Shown: positions 10,354-20,351 of the stretch, one piece after another
Layout: the number at the start of each line of letters is the position of its first letter
Numbering within the stretch: the first letter of the stretch is position 1
Source of the DNA: a virus
Direction: 5' to 3' (one strand)
IMG/VR virus record: IMGVR_UViG_3300017731_000084
Coordinates: 1-20,351 of that record
Length of the DNA: 20,351 nt
Program-made: the position numbers and the translations under genes
The notes under the pieces: generated by a model
Seen by the model: the letters and a program-made list of their open reading frames with translations, nothing else
Databases searched by the model: none
What the model was told of the DNA's origin: nothing

Positions 10354-13300
10354 ATGCCTCAATATCAATTAGAAAATGGTCAAACTTTAAATGTTCCAGA
10401 TAATTTAGACCCTGACAAAAGAGCACAAATAGCAGAAGACATTAAAGCTGCTTATGGTGTTGATATAAATCAATCTACTTTTTTAGAAAGTGCTGCTGAT
10501 AAAGTTAAATCAGTAGGTAGAGGTACTATAGGAATAGCAACAAGAGAACTTCTAGGTTTAGCTGCTTTATTTGATATGGGCAATGACAGCGAATTAGTTG
10601 AAGATTTGCAAGAGTACCAAGACTATCTTAGAACAGATTCTCCTTTTGCTTCAGACCCAAAGTTTAAAGATACATATGGTACTGCTTTAGCAGAAGGTGC
10701 TGGGTCATTTATACCTTTTTTAGGTGCTGGTTTAGCTGGTAGAGCATTAGCTAGTAGAGGAATTGTAAGTCCAACTGTAGGAACATATGGTATTCCTATG
10801 TCTTTGGCTATTCCTGTAGGTGTCTCTGGACAGGTTGATAGAATGTCAATGGCTAGAGAAATGGGTGAAGATGTTGGACCAGTAGCTGAAGTATTTGCTG
10901 AACTATTTGGTGGAGCTATAGGTGCTACAGAAGTATTACCTATTGCTAGATTCTTACAAAATGTACCTAAGTCTGCTTTAAAAAATCCTACTACTAGAGA
11001 GAGCATAGTTAATTCATTAAAACAATTTGGTACTGGTGCTGTGACTGAAGGTAGTCAAGAATTACTAGCAAGTCTTGCACAAGATTTAACTGCTAGAGGT
11101 TTATATAGTGATGAGTTACCAATAGGAGAAAGTTGGTTTGATGAGTTTACTATTGGCGGTATCATTGGTGGTAGTGCTAATGTGCTTCTTAGTGCTATGG
11201 GTGGCAAGCGTTCATATCGTAATGCCTATCACAGAGACAGAGAAGCTAAAGCTAGAGAAAATAAACTCTATTTACAAGAGCAAGGTAAGTTTGAAAGAGC
11301 TTTAGACCAAGGAGAAGTAACCGAATATCAACAACCTATATCAGTAGCCAAACCAGATATACCTGTGCCTGGAGTTTCAGGAGCAGAACCACAATTAGAA
11401 ATCGTACAACTTGCTGATGGCTCTTATGGAGTTATTGATACACAAGCAACAGAAAATCCTGTTATTGCATCAGCACCCACCGAAACAGAAGCTCTAGTTC
11501 TTAGAGACAAACAACAAAACCAATACCAAAGAGATAAGTTAAAGTCTAGATTAGATAATGATTTATATAGCATGGGCTTAAGCGAAAGTGATACAGCTCA
11601 GAAGATTGGTGCAACTGTTCTTGACCCAAACAATACACAAGTTAATTTACAAACACTTCTTAACTTTGACCCTAAATATAAAGGAGCAAAGAAAAAGAAA
11701 AGAATAGATACATCTGGCAATCAAGATGATTTAATAGATATAAAAAATTATGTAGAGAATACTCGTAAGTTACCATTCAAAACAACTTACTCTATGGCAG
11801 AAGCTAAAAAGTTTTTATCTGCTAAAGCATTTAATGAACTTAATGCTGATATGTCAAAAACTGTATTTACAGAATCTGAAAAAAGAGGCGAGCCTTCTAT
11901 TCGTGCAGATAAAGAACAATTAGATATTTCATTAAAATATTTAAAAGAATTAGCTGGTTCTAAAAATATAGATTTAGATATTGATAGCGTAGCTTTTAGT
12001 AGATTCAATGAAATGCTTACTGGCTCAAGCTCATTCAAAGGAATGAGTCGTGGTCAAAGAGAATTATTATTAGCAAGAATACATTCACTACCTAAATTTA
12101 ATTCATTAACACCTTTACCTGATTTTAGAATTAGAGAATACACAGCACAAGATATGGCTGACTTTGTAGGTGGTGTAGGTAAACAAACTTTTACATATGA
12201 TGACATTGCAACATATTTAAAAGATAGATTTACAGGTAGACAATCAAAATATTATAAAGATATTTATGGACTTACTAATACTTTAGACATAGAAATAGGA
12301 CTTAATGAAGGAATCTTAGATGAGCAAGTTGCTACCTTTGGTTCTGACTTAAGAACAAGTGGTAGAGCCGAAAGACCTAATAAAGATAATCCTAGAATAT
12401 TAAGAATTAGAGATAACTTTGAGTTTGATATAGCTAGAAAAGCAGAAGCATTTGGAGAAACACCAGATGAATTTGGAGCTAGGCTGCGTCAAGAAAATAT
12501 TTTACCAGAAGAAACTATTAACCAGTTAATAGAATCTGAGCGTGTGCGACAAGAAAAAGTATTACCACCTGCTGAAATAGAACCAAAAATATTAAACTTT
12601 AATGAAGTTGTAGAAGAAGGCAGAACTAATAAGTTTGCTAAAGAGTTAAAGAAAAGATTAAATAAATTAGGACTTGCAGAAACAGGAGTCATTGTTAGTA
12701 ATGACATACTATCTTCAGAAAATTTAGTAGCAGGTCAAACAGGTGAAGTAGTATTTGACCCTACAAAAACTAGACAAGAAAAAACTGAAGCACAATATGA
12801 TGCCGATACAGATACTATTCTTCTATCTCTAAATGCTGTAAATCCTACAGGAACATCTTCAGATGCAGAAATACAAGCAAGATTAAACTCTATTATAGAT
12901 GGGCAAGTTATACATGCGTTTCGTGCTAAAGATTTAATTAATGAAAAAGAATATAAATATTTAAGAAATCAAGTTAAGAGCAGAAAAGTACCTTTTGAAT
13001 TTGATGAAAATTTTAAAGGCAGAACTTTTTATGATAGAAGTAAAGCAATCAATTCTACTAGAGCAGAACAACTTATATCAGAAGGTAGAGGTACAGACTA
13101 TGTTGAGGAGATGTATGTAGAAAATGCTATAGCAGATTTATATAGAGCTAAAGATATTAAGCCTGATATACCACCAAAAGCTAAAGGTATATTTAGTAAA
13201 TTTATTGATTTCTTTAGAGGCATGGGAACAGCTATGCGTTCTTCTGGCTATAAAAAATCAGCATATATCTTTCGTGATATAGAGTCTGGCAAGATTGGTA

Positions 13301-16300
13301 GTAGACAAAGAGACAAAATAAGAACTTTAAGAGAACTAGATAGATTGCCAATAGCAGCAGAGCTAGCACCTATAGCAGAGGTAGATGAAACTGTAGATGA
13401 AACTATTGAAGAAACTTCAGAAATTACACAAGAAGAAATAGATGAGTTTGATATTGCTGGTGCAACATTTAGTGATACAAAGAATACAAACTTTAAAGCT
13501 GCAAAAAATGAACCTATACAAGGTAGAATTATTGCACCACCTAAAGGAACAAAGACTACCAGAACTGTTAGCCAAGATGGTTTGTATGATTCAAGAAAAT
13601 TAACTGAAGCAGAAAAATTAGAAGATGCAGAGTTTATTTTAAACAACACAGAAAATAAAAACTTAATTGGTGTTATGGAGTGGTTTGTTAAAAATGCACC
13701 AAGTAAAGACTATGGGTTTATAGCACAAGCTGTATTAAAACAACTTAAAATGTTGAACACAAAGTTTGGTTTAAACTTTGATTATACTGTTGCTGATGAA
13801 TCTTTCTTGGCACAAAAAACAACTGATGATGTAATTCGTAGAGATATTGGTTATCTAAAAAGAAATAAAATGAAAATAGGTGGTGTATCTATGTACCCTA
13901 GAAGGGGTGCTTCTGGATATGATGGACAATTCAGAGTTTACATAATGAATGTAAATGGAAACAATAGTGTAGATTTTGAAACAATACTTCATGAAGCTAT
14001 TCATTCTGCAACACAAGCAGCAACGACAGTAGGAGACCCCAAAAATTCATTTTTCTTTCCTAATATTAAAGATTCTAAATTAGAAAGTAACTTTAAAAAT
14101 TTAGAAAAATTAAGAAAACGAGTACAAAGTGAAATAAGAAAAAAAGGTTCACCAGACTTTATGGTTAAGTATGGTGTAAAAAATGTTGATGAACTATTAG
14201 CTGTTGGTTTAACTAATAGACAATTCCAAAAATTTATGGAAAACATTGAGTACAATCAACAAGGACAAAAAACTTTATGGGATGCGTTTGTAAATAGTGT
14301 AAGACAATTACTAGGACTGCGTGCAAAACAAGGAACAGCTTTATCTGTATTCTTAAAAGAGTCAAGCGGTATGCTTTCATTAGAAGCAGATGCTGCTAAA
14401 CAGATAGCTGATTACTTTACACCTAATCAAAATCAATCTCCTGGTCCTGAATTAGAACCTCTTACTAATCGTGGTCCACCACAAAGACAAGCAATTGAAA
14501 CACAAATTCGTGAATTAGAAAGTAGACTATATGACTTAAATAATGTTCGTAATAGAGAAGGCGGAGTAATGAGTAATGCCAATCTCAATAGACTAAACAA
14601 TCAAATAAGTCAGGTTGAAAATCAAATACAAGCATTAGAAAATGAATTAAATAATTTACCTCCAGAACAAAGAGATTTATTTAGTCCTTTCCAATCTGCT
14701 GTGCGTTCTCCTAATCCTAATATTGGATTACAAAAAGCAGTAGAAAGTGCAGAAGAACTTAGTAGAAAAACACCAAGAGGTGATATACCTCCATACAATA
14801 CAAATGCTTCTGATGTAGCCTTAGAAGCTGCACAAGACTTTGTTAAAGATTTATCTGCTCCTGCTATTAAATTGCCTGAACTTAAAATGGAAGTTCCTGC
14901 AGAATTTGAAAAACAAGCTGCACAAAGTGGACATAGAAGTTCAACACTTACATCTGGTGAGCGTTTAATAGATATAGTTTCTGACCCTATAACTAATATA
15001 AAGAAATCATTCAATGGATTTAGGCAAGCTATTGTTGATAGTTTAGACCCTATACAAAAAGCTATAGTTAATGGTATAGAAACTAATGAAGAAGTAAGAC
15101 TAGCAAATAGTTTAGTGTCTACTTCTACAATGGCTTCTTTAAGATTGGCTGATAGAGCAAGAGGTATCTTTGCACAAATGCTTACAAGAGGCATACCTGT
15201 TGGTCAAATTAATGGTGTAGATGCTTTAACTTCAGTAGAAGAACTAGAAATAGATACTAAATACAATCCATTTATAGATGGAAATAAAGGCAAAGGTGGT
15301 TTTGTACAGTTTACTGCACCACTATATGCAGACCCTACAGTAGATTTAGAATATGTATTTGGTCTTTATGCAAAACTTAAAAGAATAAAAACATTACAAG
15401 ATAATGGTGTCGAGATAGACACACCTCCCTCATTAAAAGATTTAGAACAAATAAAACAAATAGAAAATAATTACAAAAGTGTAGTAGAAGTCTATAACAA
15501 TTATCAAAAATGGAATAATGGACTTATTAAGTTTGCTGAATCTAAAGGTTTATTGAGCAAAGAACAATCTGCACAATGGAGAGAACATTCATCTTACTAT
15601 CCATTCTATAGAGAAATGATAGATGATGAAGGTAGAATAGCACCTGCTATAGGTGGTGGTTACTTACCTAACAATCCTTTATCTATAAAAATGAAAGGCT
15701 CAGAAAAAGAAATTACTGTGCCTCCATTAGAAGCTATAGCTAGAAACTCTTTATCTATTCTTACAGCATCCATGAAAAACGATGGTGTTAGTAAATTAGT
15801 AAGAGACATGCAATCTTTAGATTTAGCACAAGAAATTGCTGCTAAAGATACACCTGGATTAAATACAGTATTTGTATTTGAAGACGGCATTAAAAAACAT
15901 TTCTTACTAGAAGACCCAGAAATATATTATGCAATACAAACAGTAGGTGGTATTAAAACAGATGCCTTAACTAAATTTTTTGCTATGCCAGCAGGGTTTT
16001 TAAGAGATACAGTTACAAGAGACCCTGGGTTTGTTGTTGTAAACATACTTAGAGATACCTTATCTTCTGCTGTCACATCAGGAGTAGAGTTAGGTATAGA
16101 TTCAGATAGCTATACACCAATTATAGATTCAGTTAAGAATATGTTTGGTAGCATGGAAGACTTAGAAAAGTTTGGAATCATAGGTGGTTATGACTTTGCT
16201 AATGATGAAGGCGATATTGTTAAGTTCATGGCTAGAACTAGGAGACAGCAAGGACTCTCACCAGAAAACGGAATATCTGTAGAAAGTGCTTTCTTTAAAC

Positions 16301-17625
16301 TATGGGATGGACTTGGTGGATTAACCACTAAATCTGATGGTGCAACTCGTAAAGCTGTATATGATTCAGTATATAAAAATGCAATCAAGAATGGACAAAC
16401 AGAAGCTGAAGCTCAATCAGCAGCAGCTTATCAAGCATTAGAAATTATTAACTTTGGTCGTAGAGGAAGCTCACCGACTTTCAAACTTATTACTTCTGCA
16501 ATACCATTTTTAAACGCAAGAATACAAGGTCTTGATGTTCTATATAGAAGTTTTGGTTCAAGAGAATATTCTGCAACAGAGAGTCTACAAAAAGGCGAAA
16601 CCATGCAGGATGTCAAAGCTAGAATATTTAGAACAGCTATGCTCAGAGGTTTGAGCTTGATGGGAATAACGGCATTATATTATTTACTGGTAAGTGATAC
16701 TGAAGATTACAAAGAAGCCAAGCGAGAAATAAGAGATGACAACTGGTTAATACCTACACCTTGGGATTACACAGTTAAGATACCTATACCTTTTGAAGTA
16801 GGTATGATATTTAAAGCTTTACCTGAAAGAGTAATAGATATGGCTTGGGGACAAGTAGAAAAAGACCCATTCAAATCTATACAAAGACAAGTAGCCACAT
16901 CTACTAAGATACCAATTCTAGGTGGAGACATAAGTATTCAAGCAGTAAAACCTTTATTTGAGGCTATCACTAATAGAAGTGCTTTTACAGGCACAGAGAT
17001 AGTTCCTTACTACAAGTTAGGTCAACAGCCTGGGTATCAAGCCAATCCTCAAACAAACGAGTTAGCGAGGCTTTTAGGAGAGTTTCTTAACATATCACCT
17101 ATTAAGATAGAATATGTCTTAAAAGGCTACACAGGAACTCTAGGAGGCTATGCTTTATCTGTTGCTGATAGTGTGACTAGAACTGCTACAGGAACTCCAT
17201 ACATACCTAACAACGCTTTTAACAATCCTACCAACTGGTCACAACTACCAGTCTTTAAGAGACTCTTTGTTGACACTAAGAAAATGGGAGGACTGCAACA
17301 ACAGTTTTATGAGTTAAGAGGAGAAGTCAATAAGGTCACACAGACCATGAACAGACTAAGAAAAGACAAACGATTTGATGAACTGGCAACTTATAGAGCC
17401 AACTATCAAGGTGTTCTAAATGTTAAGAGTCAAGTAAGAGCATTAGAAAGATACTTAGAGAACTGGAGAAGAAAAAGAGATGCCATTATGAGAAGGGATG
17501 ATATTTCTGTTGTAGTTAAATCAGACTTAATTAGAGAACTTGAACTACAAAGAGACCAACGATTAGCCTTTGTGCCTGAATTGAGGAAGAAAGCTAATGT
17601 TCCTGTGCTCCAAGGAGGACTGTAA
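10354..17625 (+). CDS. Giant polyvalent internal virion protein: two zincin-like modules and C-terminal LPD38-like region
   Basis: This is a 2423-aa protein. The N-terminus (MPQYQLENGQTLNVPDNL, then AQIAEDIKAAYGVDIN) and hydrophobic patches at about 110-165 and 264-285 resemble phage ejection proteins. Residues about 745-985 look like a zincin module: YDADTDTILLSLNAV (from Y815), then GQVIHAFR at 850-857 where HExxH is expected, VENAIADLYR with E923, and IFRDIESGKIGSR. A second module has an intact HEAIH at 1213-1217 and a candidate third ligand, E1280, in VDELLAVGLTN, so it is a probable gluzincin-type metallopeptidase. Coiled coil runs from about 1381 to 1445. The C-terminal third includes IPFLNARIQGL (2050-2060), a signature I associate with LPD38 of phage polyvalent proteins, one membrane-like helix at about 2097-2113, and coiled coil from about 2316. 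AAGGA at 10343-10347 supports the start. It probably travels in the capsid and enters the host with the DNA. Confidence 0.8.
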   Translation: MPQYQLENGQTLNVPDNLDPDKRAQIAEDIKAAYGVDINQSTFLESAADKVKSVGRGTIGIATRELLGLAALFDMGNDSELVEDLQEYQDYLRTDSPFASDPKFKDTYGTALAEGAGSFIPFLGAGLAGRALASRGIVSPTVGTYGIPMSLAIPVGVSGQVDRMSMAREMGEDVGPVAEVFAELFGGAIGATEVLPIARFLQNVPKSALKNPTTRESIVNSLKQFGTGAVTEGSQELLASLAQDLTARGLYSDELPIGESWFDEFTIGGIIGGSANVLLSAMGGKRSYRNAYHRDREAKARENKLYLQEQGKFERALDQGEVTEYQQPISVAKPDIPVPGVSGAEPQLEIVQLADGSYGVIDTQATENPVIASAPTETEALVLRDKQQNQYQRDKLKSRLDNDLYSMGLSESDTAQKIGATVLDPNNTQVNLQTLLNFDPKYKGAKKKKRIDTSGNQDDLIDIKNYVENTRKLPFKTTYSMAEAKKFLSAKAFNELNADMSKTVFTESEKRGEPSIRADKEQLDISLKYLKELAGSKNIDLDIDSVAFSRFNEMLTGSSSFKGMSRGQRELLLARIHSLPKFNSLTPLPDFRIREYTAQDMADFVGGVGKQTFTYDDIATYLKDRFTGRQSKYYKDIYGLTNTLDIEIGLNEGILDEQVATFGSDLRTSGRAERPNKDNPRILRIRDNFEFDIARKAEAFGETPDEFGARLRQENILPEETINQLIESERVRQEKVLPPAEIEPKILNFNEVVEEGRTNKFAKELKKRLNKLGLAETGVIVSNDILSSENLVAGQTGEVVFDPTKTRQEKTEAQYDADTDTILLSLNAVNPTGTSSDAEIQARLNSIIDGQVIHAFRAKDLINEKEYKYLRNQVKSRKVPFEFDENFKGRTFYDRSKAINSTRAEQLISEGRGTDYVEEMYVENAIADLYRAKDIKPDIPPKAKGIFSKFIDFFRGMGTAMRSSGYKKSAYIFRDIESGKIGSRQRDKIRTLRELDRLPIAAELAPIAEVDETVDETIEETSEITQEEIDEFDIAGATFSDTKNTNFKAAKNEPIQGRIIAPPKGTKTTRTVSQDGLYDSRKLTEAEKLEDAEFILNNTENKNLIGVMEWFVKNAPSKDYGFIAQAVLKQLKMLNTKFGLNFDYTVADESFLAQKTTDDVIRRDIGYLKRNKMKIGGVSMYPRRGASGYDGQFRVYIMNVNGNNSVDFETILHEAIHSATQAATTVGDPKNSFFFPNIKDSKLESNFKNLEKLRKRVQSEIRKKGSPDFMVKYGVKNVDELLAVGLTNRQFQKFMENIEYNQQGQKTLWDAFVNSVRQLLGLRAKQGTALSVFLKESSGMLSLEADAAKQIADYFTPNQNQSPGPELEPLTNRGPPQRQAIETQIRELESRLYDLNNVRNREGGVMSNANLNRLNNQISQVENQIQALENELNNLPPEQRDLFSPFQSAVRSPNPNIGLQKAVESAEELSRKTPRGDIPPYNTNASDVALEAAQDFVKDLSAPAIKLPELKMEVPAEFEKQAAQSGHRSSTLTSGERLIDIVSDPITNIKKSFNGFRQAIVDSLDPIQKAIVNGIETNEEVRLANSLVSTSTMASLRLADRARGIFAQMLTRGIPVGQINGVDALTSVEELEIDTKYNPFIDGNKGKGGFVQFTAPLYADPTVDLEYVFGLYAKLKRIKTLQDNGVEIDTPPSLKDLEQIKQIENNYKSVVEVYNNYQKWNNGLIKFAESKGLLSKEQSAQWREHSSYYPFYREMIDDEGRIAPAIGGGYLPNNPLSIKMKGSEKEITVPPLEAIARNSLSILTASMKNDGVSKLVRDMQSLDLAQEIAAKDTPGLNTVFVFEDGIKKHFLLEDPEIYYAIQTVGGIKTDALTKFFAMPAGFLRDTVTRDPGFVVVNILRDTLSSAVTSGVELGIDSDSYTPIIDSVKNMFGSMEDLEKFGIIGGYDFANDEGDIVKFMARTRRQQGLSPENGISVESAFFKLWDGLGGLTTKSDGATRKAVYDSVYKNAIKNGQTEAEAQSAAAYQALEIINFGRRGSSPTFKLITSAIPFLNARIQGLDVLYRSFGSREYSATESLQKGETMQDVKARIFRTAMLRGLSLMGITALYYLLVSDTEDYKEAKREIRDDNWLIPTPWDYTVKIPIPFEVGMIFKALPERVIDMAWGQVEKDPFKSIQRQVATSTKIPILGGDISIQAVKPLFEAITNRSAFTGTEIVPYYKLGQQPGYQANPQTNELARLLGEFLNISPIKIEYVLKGYTGTLGGYALSVADSVTRTATGTPYIPNNAFNNPTNWSQLPVFKRLFVDTKKMGGLQQQFYELRGEVNKVTQTMNRLRKDKRFDELATYRANYQGVLNVKSQVRALERYLENWRRKRDAIMRRDDISVVVKSDLIRELELQRDQRLAFVPELRKKANVPVLQGGL
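17563..17625. other. Tail-to-tail coding overlap of the two operons
   Basis: The last 63 bp of the rightward giant gene (ending TAA 17623-17625) also encode the last residues of the leftward 127-aa gene (stop at 17563-17565). I see no hairpin with a following U-tract on either strand here; CTCCAAGGAG at about 17609 has only a two-base loop. Read-through transcripts from both sides would be complementary in this zone. Confidence 0.75.
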
Positions 17626-17946: not shown

Positions 17947-17960
17947 AATTTCCTCCCAGG

Positions 17961-17990
17961 AATTTCTATTTACCAGTTAAATATTTTTTA
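17961..17990 (-). promoter_or_regulatory. AT-rich intergenic element, copy A
   Basis: Read on the minus strand, the core is TATTTAACTGGTAAATAG, preceded by six A and followed by a GGGAGG Shine-Dalgarno and the ATG at 17946. It overlaps the last codons of the RusA-like gene (residues YLTGK and the stop). It aligns with copies B and C, and its arms ATTTA/TAAAT form a dyad around the centre. A candidate promoter or operator. Confidence 0.45.
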
Positions 17991-18370
17991 TCCTTGATGG
18001 TATCTATCACTAACACACATCTAGGGTTATCTTTCTCCACCCCACCAAACTTATAAACCACTTCTTTGATTTGCTCAGAACTATCATCCACCAAAACTTC
18101 TGCTTTAACTAAAGCATCGCAAGTAAACTTATCTATTATTGAACAAGGATTACTAACATCTAATCTCCTATTGCTTTTAGCATAATAGGTGTATGTCAAA
18201 CGAACAGGTTCTTGATAGGTCGGATGACTGATTCTGCTGACAAGATTTTCAGAGTATATCTTTTTAGAATTAGACAACACTCGGTAATGAGCATTACGAT
18301 AGTTGTTTAAGTTCAAGATAAACTTCTTGTTCTTGGAATAGTAAACTTCTAATGGTAAATCAATCTTCAT
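17966..18370 (-). CDS. rusA: RusA-like Holliday-junction resolvase
   Basis: This 134-aa protein has the RusA-family layout: an N-terminal LNNYRNAHYRVLSNSKK substrate/dimer region, then RRLDVSNPCSIIDKFTCDAL and EVLVDDSSEQI. RusA is a small dimeric endonuclease that resolves four-way DNA junctions with Mg2+ using aspartates. Here Asp71 matches RusA Asp70 and Asp95/Asp96 match the second acidic site, but the position of RusA Asp72 is Ser73. That DxSN form is, as I recall, common in a phage subgroup. In phages such enzymes process recombination or replication branches, perhaps before packaging. The ATG at 18370 lies inside the end of the 40-aa gene (11-bp overlap) and has no strong Shine-Dalgarno of its own, so coupling is likely. 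The symbol marks the family only. Confidence 0.85.
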   Translation of the reverse strand: MKIDLPLEVYYSKNKKFILNLNNYRNAHYRVLSNSKKIYSENLVSRISHPTYQEPVRLTYTYYAKSNRRLDVSNPCSIIDKFTCDALVKAEVLVDDSSEQIKEVVYKFGGVEKDNPRCVLVIDTIKDKKYLTGK

Positions 18371-18482
18371 TTTTTGGAGGACTAATTAATTCATACCAAA
18401 ACTTATCGCTCTTGATAACATCAATAACTTCTTGTCTTGTAGGTTCTTTTTCAAATTCTAACTCTATCTTTACTTCATACAT
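18360..18482 (-). CDS. Small protein of 40 aa, function unknown
   Basis: Reading the minus strand from ATG at 18482 gives 40 residues: MYEVKIELEF, EKEPTRQEVI, DVIKSDKFWY, ELISPPKNED, then TGA at 18360-18362. A short strand (YEVKIELEFE) followed by a helix (TRQEVIDVIKSD) suggests a small alpha/beta fold. GGGGA on the minus strand lies about ten bases upstream of the ATG, and the end overlaps the RusA start by 11 bp, as expected for a real gene in this compact operon. I recall similarly short phage proteins with this strand-helix layout, but no function. It fills what would otherwise be a gap between the Ref-like and RusA-like genes. Confidence 0.6.
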   Translation of the reverse strand: MYEVKIELEFEKEPTRQEVIDVIKSDKFWYELISPPKNED

Positions 18483-18493
18483 CCTGCTTCCCC

Positions 18494-18523
18494 GAAATAT
18501 CTATAACCAGTAAATATTTTTTA
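18494..18523 (-). promoter_or_regulatory. AT-rich intergenic element, copy B
   Basis: On the minus strand the core is TATTTACTGGTTATAGAT, preceded by six A and followed by GGGGA and the ATG at 18482. Of the three copies only this one lies wholly outside coding sequence, in the 59-bp gap 18483-18541. A weak sigma70-like pair (CTGCAA, 18 bp, TATAGA) can be drawn over it. One base is missing relative to copy A. Confidence 0.45.
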
Positions 18524-18541
18524 TTGCAGCTCCAGGCTGCG

Positions 18542-18865
18542 TCAAAATGGTAGGTCATCATAATAGTTATTTTCCTTTAATAATTTGTTTACTTGCTCTA
18601 ATAATTCTTGTTCAGTTCCATATGCCTTTACGAATCTAGCTTTATATGGATGTCTGCTTATAGGCTCTTTATCACTTCCCATGCGATGATGTTCAAAACA
18701 TAATGGTAATACTTTGAAGTGTGAATCCTTTTTGGTTTTCCCTTCGATGTGATGAATCTCACAGGGAACATAGAATCTACCTTGATTCCTACAGACAATA
18801 CATCCTAACTGACTAACTCTATCCATGTGCTTAGACTCTGCCTTGTTAGGATTTCTGCCTTTCAT
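18542..18865 (-). CDS. Ref-family HNH nuclease (RecA-dependent nuclease-like)
   Basis: This 107-aa protein has the pattern of the phage P1 Ref family: AESKHMDRVSQLGCIVC at the N-terminus with Cys22-x2-Cys25, then EIHHIEGKTKKDSHF with His38-His39, LPLCFEHHRMGS with Cys56 and His59-His60, and KAYGTEQELLEQVNKLL at the end. The Cys/His residues fit a zinc-stabilised HNH nuclease core. P1 Ref cuts DNA at RecA-bound displacement loops; by analogy this protein may act with host RecA in phage recombination, but RecA dependence is not shown by sequence. The C-terminus ends in acidic/hydrophobic YYDDLPF, like an SSB-type tip. The ATG at 18865 overlaps the stop of the upstream gene (ATGA). Confidence 0.8.
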   Translation of the reverse strand: MKGRNPNKAESKHMDRVSQLGCIVCRNQGRFYVPCEIHHIEGKTKKDSHFKVLPLCFEHHRMGSDKEPISRHPYKARFVKAYGTEQELLEQVNKLLKENNYYDDLPF

Positions 18866-19014
18866 TTTTGCATTTCTTTTATAAGTTCTGTTGCTTCTTT
18901 ACTTGATATATCTGTAAGCGTAGAAGCGATTAATAATAATGCTAACTGCTTCCTTTGATATTCAGGAAACTGCAATAGTTTATTTAATAATGCCTTGGTT
19001 ATCTTACGCTCCAT
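18862..19014 (-). CDS. Small helical protein (50 aa), function unknown
   Basis: From ATG at 19014 the frame gives 50 residues, mostly helical: RKITKALLNKLLQFPEYQRK, QLALLLIAST, SKEATELIKEMQK. The frame is open to an ATG at 19071, which would add 19 residues and overlap the upstream gene by 68 bp. The shorter start is preferred because AAGGA on the minus strand lies about 11 bases before it and the overlap falls to 11 bp, like neighbouring junctions. It ends in an ATGA overlap with the Ref-like nuclease gene, so the two are probably made together. No domain is recognised. Confidence 0.6.
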   Translation of the reverse strand: MERKITKALLNKLLQFPEYQRKQLALLLIASTLTDISSKEATELIKEMQK

Positions 19015-19339
19015 ACCTAGCTTGTTCCTTCCTCGCTGATACTTGTTCAGTTCGCCATTGCTCAAAGCCAATCTCCAATGCCCTCAACTCAACCTTTAAG
19101 GCACTTAATCCACTCTTATAACTAGCAACTTTTAGTCTAGCATCAAACAATTCTTCTTTGCTTTCAGCATAAGTATCTTGTGCAGAAGTAGTTTTAATGC
19201 CCTCTCCCAAAGCTTTTACCTTTAACAACGCTTGTGTTTTCTTTACTAATGCTTCTGACTTTAAAACTTCATACTCTGTTTTCTCTATAAGAGGAGCAAG
19301 TTCCCTTATCTTGTGCATCCAATTCTCAACCTCAATCAT
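19004..19339 (-). CDS. Coiled-coil phage protein (111 aa)
   Basis: This 111-aa protein is almost wholly helical and charged: IEVENWMHKIRELAPLIEK, YEVLKSEALVKKTQALLKVK, TYAESKEELFDARLKVASYK, then ALKVELRALEIGFEQWRTEQ and a basic end. The C-terminal pattern ALEIGFEQWRT with a following Arg/Lys tail recalls a small family near recombination genes of podophages; the function is unknown to me. AAGGGA on the minus strand lies about nine bases upstream of the ATG. The start overlaps the stop of the 58-aa gene (ATGA). No membrane segment is seen. It could be a structural or adaptor protein in the replication module. Confidence 0.75.
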   Translation of the reverse strand: MIEVENWMHKIRELAPLIEKTEYEVLKSEALVKKTQALLKVKALGEGIKTTSAQDTYAESKEELFDARLKVASYKSGLSALKVELRALEIGFEQWRTEQVSARKEQARYGA

Positions 19340-19512
19340 TTTGTTTTTCCCTTTTTACTAGATGTTTCTTCCCAAACATTTTTAAGTTTGGTTATATCTG
19401 TTTCTTTTTTAGTATTTCTGTCCTTGCGAAAAATCCTATCAAAGTTTTCATCAAACTTATCTTTATCATAAGGTCTAGTTCTACTGCCTTTGCCTCCATG
19501 CCACTTAGTCAT
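19336..19512 (-). CDS. Small basic phage protein of the HGGKGS type (58 aa)
   Basis: The minus strand from ATG 19512 reads MTKWHGGKGSRTRPYDKDKF, DENFDRIFRKDRNTKK, ETDITKLKNVWEET and a Lys-rich end, then TGA at 19336-19338. The pattern of an N-terminal H/K-GGKGS-x-x-RP followed by F-x-x-N(F/W)D-x-IF is one I recognise from many short phage proteins, whose function I do not know. Both ends are ATGA overlaps, with the 31-aa gene upstream and the 111-aa gene downstream, which supports that it is translated. It has no strong Shine-Dalgarno of its own. Confidence 0.75.
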   Translation of the reverse strand: MTKWHGGKGSRTRPYDKDKFDENFDRIFRKDRNTKKETDITKLKNVWEETSSKKGKTK

Positions 19513-19604
19513 TTCTTGTGTCTATTTCTAAATAGCTTGTCTGCTTTTCTCTGAAAAGACTTCTCCAAAAATCTATTCCAAAGATTACTTAAAAATTTTC
19601 TCAT
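19509..19604 (-). CDS. Basic amphipathic peptide (31 aa), function unknown
   Basis: ATG at 19604 opens a 31-residue frame: MRKFLSNLWNRFLEKSFQRK, then ADKLFRNRHKK and TGA at 19509-19511. Twelve of 31 residues are Lys, Arg or His beyond the two acidic ones, and Leu/Phe/Trp recur every three to four residues, so an amphipathic helix is likely. Evidence that it is a gene: its ATG overlaps the upstream stop (ATGA), its TGA overlaps the next ATG (ATGA), and GAGGGA lies about five bases before its start. No family is recognised. It could bind nucleic acid or a membrane surface, but that is only composition. Confidence 0.6.
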   Translation of the reverse strand: MRKFLSNLWNRFLEKSFQRKADKLFRNRHKK

Positions 19605-19810
19605 TCTTCCCTCTCTATATTCCACGCAAAAGGTTTTAAGACTGCTTTCTTAAAAGACTTTCTTCCGTATTGTTCATTGAAGATTCTCATAGCAACTTCT
19701 TCGCTATATGGTTCTTCATCGTGTTGTCGTTTTTCTCTTGTGTTCATATCAAACCAAACTCCAAAGTTTGTCTCGTAATCTGATTCATCATCGTATTTGA
19801 ATACTTCCAT
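19601..19810 (-). CDS. Small acidic/aromatic phage protein (69 aa), function unknown
   Basis: This 69-aa protein starts MEVFKYDDESDYETNFGVWF. A charged middle (TREKRQHDEEPYSEEVAMRI) and an RKSFKKAVLKPFAWNIEREE end follow. It is acidic at the N-terminus and basic near the C-terminus. GGAGAG on the minus strand lies about seven bases upstream of the ATG at 19810, and copy C of the AT-rich element lies just upstream of that, so this may be the first gene of a transcription unit. The stop overlaps the 31-aa gene start (ATGA). No domain is recognised. Confidence 0.7.
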   Translation of the reverse strand: MEVFKYDDESDYETNFGVWFDMNTREKRQHDEEPYSEEVAMRIFNEQYGRKSFKKAVLKPFAWNIEREE

Positions 19811-19821
19811 CCCAGCTCTCC

Positions 19822-19853
19822 AAAATATTATTTACTAGTTATTAGATTTTTTA
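19822..19853 (-). promoter_or_regulatory. AT-rich intergenic element, copy C
   Basis: On the minus strand the core is TCTAATAACTAGTAAATAAT, preceded by six A and followed by ATTTTGGAGAG and the ATG at 19810. It overlaps the last codons of the 74-aa gene (residues NLITSK and the stop). ACTAGT is a short palindrome at its centre. It is more diverged than copies A and B. Confidence 0.4.
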
Positions 19854-20052
19854 CCTTGTCGCTAAGTTCATACATAACCATTTTATAACTTTGAACATTA
19901 ACTTCTTGGTTGTTATCATTTGCACTTTCAAAATGCACAATACATTCTTCAAGTCTTTTGTGTATTTCTTCAAGTCCTTGCAGATAAGAACACTTATCGT
20001 TCTTATCCGCAATCTTGACTACTGAAGTTTTATTAGAATGGGATGTCGTCAT
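19828..20052 (-). CDS. Small helical phage protein (74 aa), function unknown
   Basis: This 74-aa protein has a Ser/Thr/Lys-rich lead, then two helices: YLQGLEEIHKRLEECIVHFE and QSYKMVMYELSDKVKNLITSK, separated by a polar loop. The ATG at 20052 overlaps the end of the SSB-like gene by 20 bp and has only a weak TGAG upstream, so translation is probably coupled. No domain, signal or membrane segment is seen. Its last codons fall within element copy C. Confidence 0.65.
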   Translation of the reverse strand: MTTSHSNKTSVVKIADKNDKCSYLQGLEEIHKRLEECIVHFESANDNNQEVNVQSYKMVMYELSDKVKNLITSK

Positions 20053-20332
20053 CGCTCAACTCAGGTTTGTTTTCTTGAACAGGAGGCGTAGGTCTTGGGT
20101 CTGCCTGTTGTGTTTGCTTTTGTGGAATGTCTAAACGAGCATACTTATAATCGTTGCCATTCTTAGACCTCCTATCCCAAAGAGCAACACGCATTTCTGC
20201 TTCCTCGCCACTCTTTACTTTCTCTACTAAAGCTTTTAGTAGGTTCTTATCAAGAACAACTTTGCCTGTCCAATCAGGTTGTTTGTCATTCTGTTTATAG
20301 TTATTAGTGTAGATTGCTCCGTCACTTTGCAT
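20033..20332 (-). CDS. SSB-like phage protein with acidic C-terminal tip
   Basis: From ATG 20332 this is 99 aa: MQSDGAIYTNNYKQNDKQPD, then WTGKVVL, an inserted helix (NLLKALVEKVKSGEEAEM) and RVALWDRRSKNGNDYKYARL. A Gln/Pro-rich linker follows, ending in LSDDDIPF. The small beta-barrel-like pattern and the DDDIPF tip resemble single-stranded-DNA-binding proteins, whose acidic tip recruits partner enzymes. Short phage proteins of this build are common, and calling it a true SSB is inference. An ATG at 20344 in frame would add four residues, but GGAAG just before 20332 fits a Shine-Dalgarno, and the sequence before 20344 (TAAGTAA) does not. It heads the visible leftward module; anything further upstream is off the window. 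Confidence 0.65.
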   Translation of the reverse strand: MQSDGAIYTNNYKQNDKQPDWTGKVVLDKNLLKALVEKVKSGEEAEMRVALWDRRSKNGNDYKYARLDIPQKQTQQADPRPTPPVQENKPELSDDDIPF

Positions 20333-20351
20333 CCTTTCTTCCATTTACTTA

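Follow-up and report, generated by a model that had tools for sequence, protein, structure and literature searches.

The element and its copies in the window

A short AT-rich element stands upstream of genes at three places in a leftward operon of an uncultured virus, and the question is whether it serves as a promoter or as an operator. We analyzed a fragment of 20,351 bases of this virus, here called the window, whose rightward genes are structural and lysis genes. The features of the window to which we refer are as follows.

17966–18370, leftward: RusA-like resolvase gene
18542–18865, leftward: Ref-like nuclease gene
20033–20344, leftward: gene of an SSB-like protein
17959–17990, plus strand: putative operator copy A, near-palindromic TATTTACCAGTTAAATA, on the minus strand TATTTAACTGGTAAATA
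18494–18524, minus strand: putative operator copy B, AAAAAATATTTACTGGTTATAGATATTT, in the gap 18483–18541
19821–19853, plus strand: putative operator copy C, AAAATATTATTTACTAGTTATTAGATTTTTT
16673–16703, plus strand: weaker copy inside the 2423-aa gene, 17.0 bits
12508–12538, plus strand: weaker copy within the 2423-aa gene, palindromic TATTAACCAGTTAATA, 14.2 bits, perfect dyad

An earlier reading of the letters of the window (the sequence-only reading) had placed minus-strand elements at 17961–17990, 18494–18523 and 19822–19853, and the sequences are indeed found there. Each is preceded by AAAAAA and followed by a G-rich Shine-Dalgarno sequence and an ATG. It is also correct that between 17947 and 20052 the gaps 17947–17965, 18483–18541 and 19811–19827 are the sole junctions without overlap, all remaining neighbors overlapping. 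Copies A and C each overlap a gene end, copy A the final codons of the rusA-like gene together with the gap that separates it from the next one, copy C the final codons of the open reading frame 19828–20052 together with the gap 19811–19827. The two copies code, as had been read, for the C-terminal ends YLTGK of the RusA-like protein and LITSK of a small protein without assigned function.

We built a matrix from 60 non-redundant copies of relatives, the window and its two nearest relatives being excluded. In the window the three top sites of the matrix scan are copy B with 28.8 bits, copy C with 24.5 bits and copy A with 22.4 bits. In 100 simulated sequences the same matrix gave a best score of 7.5 bits on average and 21.7 bits at most, and the third best score never exceeded 8.3. 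The three copies are real and stand well above chance. Only copy B is oriented with the leftward genes; the other two score better on the plus strand, opposite to these genes (copy A 22.4 bits against 7.5 on the minus strand, copy C 24.5 against 15.4).

The stretch 16673–16703 is found with the same sequence in the clade A relatives G001, G009 and G026, a recurrence that is perhaps due only to protein conservation, and a function of the copy at 12508–12538 is doubtful. A giant protein of 2010–3103 residues closes the structural block in the window (10354–17625) and in its relatives; it has weak relatives in named phages for the last third only.

Distribution in related genomes

A search with the RusA protein retrieved 79 related viral loci. 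These phages are uncultured and mostly marine. The nucleotide comparison with named phages gave no match. The closest terminases among named phages are those of HTVC027P and DSL-LC04, in which the replication region, judged from annotation, differs.

The core TATTTA(A)CYRGT occurs 5–19 times per genome, on both strands, in 17 related records of 24–63 kb, with an expectation of at most 0.6 per genome under an order-3 Markov model. The fullest copies are dyads TATTTACYRGTAAATA flanked by an A-tract and a T-tract, and TATTTACYRGTAAATA was recovered blind from over-represented words and counts of 16-base dyads. The dyad is conserved independently of coding, which bears out the suggestion that conservation acts on the DNA level, and with core matches in 17 genomes the element is conserved in related phages as well.

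The copies are distributed over the whole genome and favor intergenic gaps. Among 146 one-sided copies, 108 lie between genes and 38 inside genes at a coding fraction of about 78%; the expected excess between genes is seen, and copies within genes are few, as had also been asked for. For this preference p is about 3e-40, a value which is indicative only as the related genomes were treated as independent. Genes were called with a simple ORF caller and kept if they were long or conserved in at least four genomes. A few in-gene copies occupy the same place in many relatives, for instance G005:15437 and G005:39348, both on the minus strand. At the site corresponding to G005:39348 the group B genomes (see below) have a B-version counterpart, TATTCACTAGT, a hint that some of the copies within genes may be functional.

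Clade-specific versions of the site

Depending on the clade the half-site reads TATTTAC, TATTCAC, TATTAAC or TATTTTCC. The complete sites are the following.

Group A: TATTTACYRGTAAATA
Group B (G020, G024): TATTC[AG]CYRGTGAATA
Group C (G014, G018, G019): TATTAACNNGTTAATA, centre freer
Group D (G027 and several loci with the RHH gene described below): roughly AAAAAATATTTTCCTAGT

Each group carries its own version almost exclusively. Sites of the own version amount to 21.2 per 100 kb in A, 16.4 in B and 16.5 in C genomes, and foreign versions among these three groups to 0–2.6. The D pattern is weaker, with 5.0 sites per 100 kb in D against 1.3–2.2 elsewhere. Between A and B the sites at shared gene boundaries (the rusA end and the AAA/DUF3150 gap) have switched along with the rest. 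Such genome-wide switching is the trace that would be expected from a sequence-specific protein which changes its preference.

Candidate regulators

Groups A, B and D have in common a small protein of about 66–107 residues with the consensus MKSLFIRCSEETYELAHALAKKESRSLNKQIIHMIH and a variable tail; it was not found in group C. It appears to be of the Arc-like ribbon-helix-helix (RHH) type. Its gene, the RHH gene, occurs in each of the 17 site-bearing A genomes and also in B and D genomes. It is absent from G014, G018, G019, G030 and G031, and G032 has three site matches, yet the gene was not found in its 48 kb. The structure model has helices at residues 13–25 and 30–45 with a core pLDDT of 80–85, the strand not being drawn in the monomer model. 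A short N-terminal strand followed by two helices, as in Arc-like RHH proteins, is the predicted arrangement. Compared with the PDB the predicted fold matches the Arc repressor best (probability 1.00, target TM 0.81), with E-values above 0.1 as the protein is tiny. On the sequence level 24 of 26 members match weakly to an Arc-like repressor PHROG and 17 of 26 to the HicB family; a search of PDB sequences with the RHH profile returned nothing.

Sites of A or B type lie within 3 kb in 68 of 77 RHH loci; eight loci are of D type and one is only 498 bases long. In most loci sites flank the RHH gene, about 380–470 nt upstream and about 405–490 nt downstream of its start. Group C carries in place of RHH an 84-residue LexA-type DNA-binding domain (PF01726, 5.7e-11), and a C-type site is located about 700–730 nt upstream of the LexA-like gene in all three group C genomes. 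The site version tracks the RHH and the LexA-like clades; the DNA-contacting segment of the RHH protein does not account for the D version. The RHH protein is likely the binder, although the D proteins share the contact segment with some A proteins while the sites differ, and Asn at the strand position is found with both A and B sites. On the same two observations the RHH beta-strand is not supported as the sole determinant of specificity.

Promoter, operator or replication site

Relative to the next gene, 45 one-sided intergenic copies are on the same strand and 62 on the opposite strand (p = 0.12). The prediction of one strand per module is not borne out. A T7-like single-subunit RNA polymerase (PF00940) was not found in 34 related records, many of them not complete, and the search might overlook a highly diverged enzyme; as a control the T7 enzyme was recovered at 9.9e-110. 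Outside the element we found no conserved −10/−35 columns. Promoter-like matches near the elements are raised only diffusely, which probably stems from AT-rich intergenic DNA. A sigma-70-like promoter within the element or at a fixed distance from it was rejected on account of the missing conserved columns and the diffuse matches. By eye, a TATAAT box is seen in several loci directly before the start codon of the gene pair with the candidate regulator, and points to use of the host polymerase.

The sequence-only reading had favored a promoter specific to the phage, possibly served by an RNA polymerase of its own, so that a transcript would begin at every copy and run toward the gene that follows. 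The copies do stand before genes, and some one-sided copies end with C(T)ATAG or TATTG after ATTTA, endings which we take to resemble loosely the promoters of SP6/T7 type. However, the orientation is random with respect to the next gene, in the window two copies out of three score best on the wrong strand, the site has dyad symmetry, the polymerase gene was not found in the 34 related records, and the hairpins in the sense RNA (see below) require transcription across the site. A promoter is therefore very improbable, and the operator, which had been named as the alternative, is supported. We give the least credence of all to a replication or DNA-organizing site of the iteron or centromere kind instead of a transcription operator. 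Several copies cluster by DnaA-box-like TGTGGATAA words near the RHH gene, and RHH proteins (match to PHROG 795) are also at work in the partition and copy control of plasmids. But the copies are spread genome-wide and prefer intergenic gaps, and an integrase was not found in 20 records (control positive in 14 of 14 genomes), so that no prophage or plasmid stage is indicated.

An operator might also be bound by a protein other than RHH. The Ref-like nuclease and two proteins of unknown function have a distribution nearly identical to that of the RHH gene, and one could therefore assign the operator to the product of the gene before RHH, to a 112-aa protein or to the nuclease. We consider this quite improbable, since the two unknown proteins have no match to a DNA-binding family and the family of the Ref-like nuclease is RecA-dependent and is not known to act in regulation. 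Somewhat less remote, although still unlikely, is the operator of a host transcription factor exploited by the phage, the clade differences then reflecting different hosts. Dense CtrA sites, clustered in the intergenic DNA of phages of Alphaproteobacteria, set a precedent (PMC9437464), and the RHH beta-strand segment alone does not explain the D sites. The CtrA sites, which are bound by the host factor, differ from ours in reading TTAA-N7-TTAA. Against a host factor argue the site version, which accompanies the phage's own RHH or LexA-like gene, and the fixed places at which the sites flank the RHH gene.

DnaA-box-like TGTGGATAA words adjoin the operator copy near the RHH operon in L172, L176, L185, L191 and in G005 at about 10405–10480. 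These words suggest a replication origin which would use the host DnaA.

Proposed mode of action

With moderate confidence we suggest that the copies of the element make up an operator set which spans the genome and serves a small regulator encoded by the phage, the predicted binder being probably the Arc-like RHH protein. The dyad would be a short operator of two-fold symmetry, present in many copies per genome and bound by the phage's own small DNA-binding protein. In the clade of the window the RHH gene is expected about 8 kb from rusA, past the right end of the contig, by comparison with G001, the nearest relative. The two half-sites could be occupied by two RHH dimers, and copies with one good half might bind more weakly or cooperatively. 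With rising amounts of the regulator, paired dimers would bind the dyads, and tightest where both halves are good. Bound in short intergenic gaps, the protein could repress transcription by the host RNA polymerase, or else pause or space it. Orientation would be irrelevant, because bound protein would hinder the host RNA polymerase from either direction. The operon of the regulator itself is flanked by sites and may be tuned by it as well. We infer RHH as binder, which would repress or pause rather than activate, although in places it may activate.

Comparison with known systems

Cluster A mycobacteriophages such as L5 and Bxb1 have stoperators, many short sites at which one phage repressor binds and halts elongation, and stoperator and repressor co-diverge between related phages (PMC6550527). 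The stoperators are asymmetric 13-bp sites of temperate phages and mostly follow the direction of transcription. Our element resembles them in its many copies over the genome, mostly between genes, but has a dyad, random orientation and an RHH candidate, in phages for which an integrase was not found in the records searched. The element SPBRE of the Bacillus phage SPbeta is an intergenic repeat which was found in silico and later turned out to be the recognition site of the master repressor MrpR, a protein with a tyrosine-recombinase fold that maintains lysogeny (PMC10516654). Here too a repeated intergenic element was first seen by an in silico search, but the candidate is Arc-like and a lysogeny gene was not found in our records. 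Among solved folds, the closest to that predicted for the candidate regulator is the fold of Arc, the repressor of phage P22. Two Arc dimers occupy a dyad operator, and Arc works at one immunity region, whereas in the phages studied here there are many sites genome-wide, and the sequence similarity to Arc is weak. The site set is distinguished from stoperators and SPBRE by its symmetry and random orientation, by the predicted fold of its candidate regulator and by the context of RNA hairpins and ribozyme motifs.

A viral control circuit with its sites and a likely regulator can thus be proposed from sequence alone, and it concerns mostly marine phages without a close relative in the collection of named phages searched. 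With at least three clear operator versions in otherwise similar genomes they offer a natural series. Two regulator folds apparently share one role, and self-cleaving RNA motifs appear at the same gene starts. The coevolution of operator and regulator is directly approachable with small synthetic DNAs and small proteins.

RNA hairpins and hammerhead-like motifs

The AAA-ATPase, DUF3150 and VWA genes of group A are each followed by a gap of the same layout: the stop codon is followed after about 25–30 nt by a full dyad, then by a hammerhead-like motif, the Shine-Dalgarno sequence and the ATG. In these early gaps the dyad caps a longer hairpin, and the pairing of its arms favors the sense RNA (70 wobbles of the sense type against 29 of the antisense type, p about 5e-5). 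Transcription seems to cross the dyad in these early cassettes, because both arms pair in the sense RNA.

Searching by structure, we obtained 54 type III hammerhead-like matches; reversed sequences yielded none. Of the 54, 49 (with one counted twice) fall between genes, most of these 49 at 68–91 nt before a gene start. The match at G017:37485–37540 scores 47.5 bits against Rfam Hammerhead_3 (E 4.9e-11), the gathering score being 48.5. At gathering scores Rfam returned nothing; the remaining hammerhead-like motifs diverge and are missed by Rfam. Series of up to four motifs per record stand upstream of early genes in G005 (L081:5700–9450), G013, G008, G012, G011, G029 and others. The window has no cassettes of hairpin and hammerhead.

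Hammerheads were known before in phage genomes (PMC3088659; PMC6155905). In the literature examined we met no precedent for a hammerhead series behind an operator hairpin in one early operon. We regard it as possible, although rather doubtful, that the dyad has a dual use, serving genome-wide as a DNA operator and, in the early operon, capping an RNA hairpin that directly precedes a hammerhead. Self-cleavage would then cut the polycistronic early RNA into single-gene messages, each upstream piece would end in the dyad hairpin, and the bound regulator would set the amount of RNA. In related phages this layout would have been built anew around a LexA-like regulator and the palindrome that belongs to it.

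In clade C apparent type I hammerhead motifs (CTGATGA ... GAAA, stem I open) are seen by eye in G018 (L120:4480–4600) and G019 (L132:12000–12150 and 14140–14250), in the same gene neighborhood and beside the clade's own TATTAACNNGTTAATA palindromes. The AAA/DUF3150 gap of G027 (clade D), upstream of 55358, contains a GC-rich hairpin, a T-run and then a hammerhead-like motif. Hairpin and T-run resemble an ordinary intrinsic terminator and hold the place of the clade A dyad hairpin.

A candidate small RNA is located about 550–800 nt upstream of the RHH gene in L171, L176, L177, L180, L181, L190 and L194, among others. It consists of a promoter-like stretch, the anti-Shine-Dalgarno-like word ACCTCCAT, a hairpin and a T run, in this order, and the word is found in 27 of 74 RHH loci. 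The TGGAGGT ribosome sites of early genes are possible pairing partners of such an RNA.
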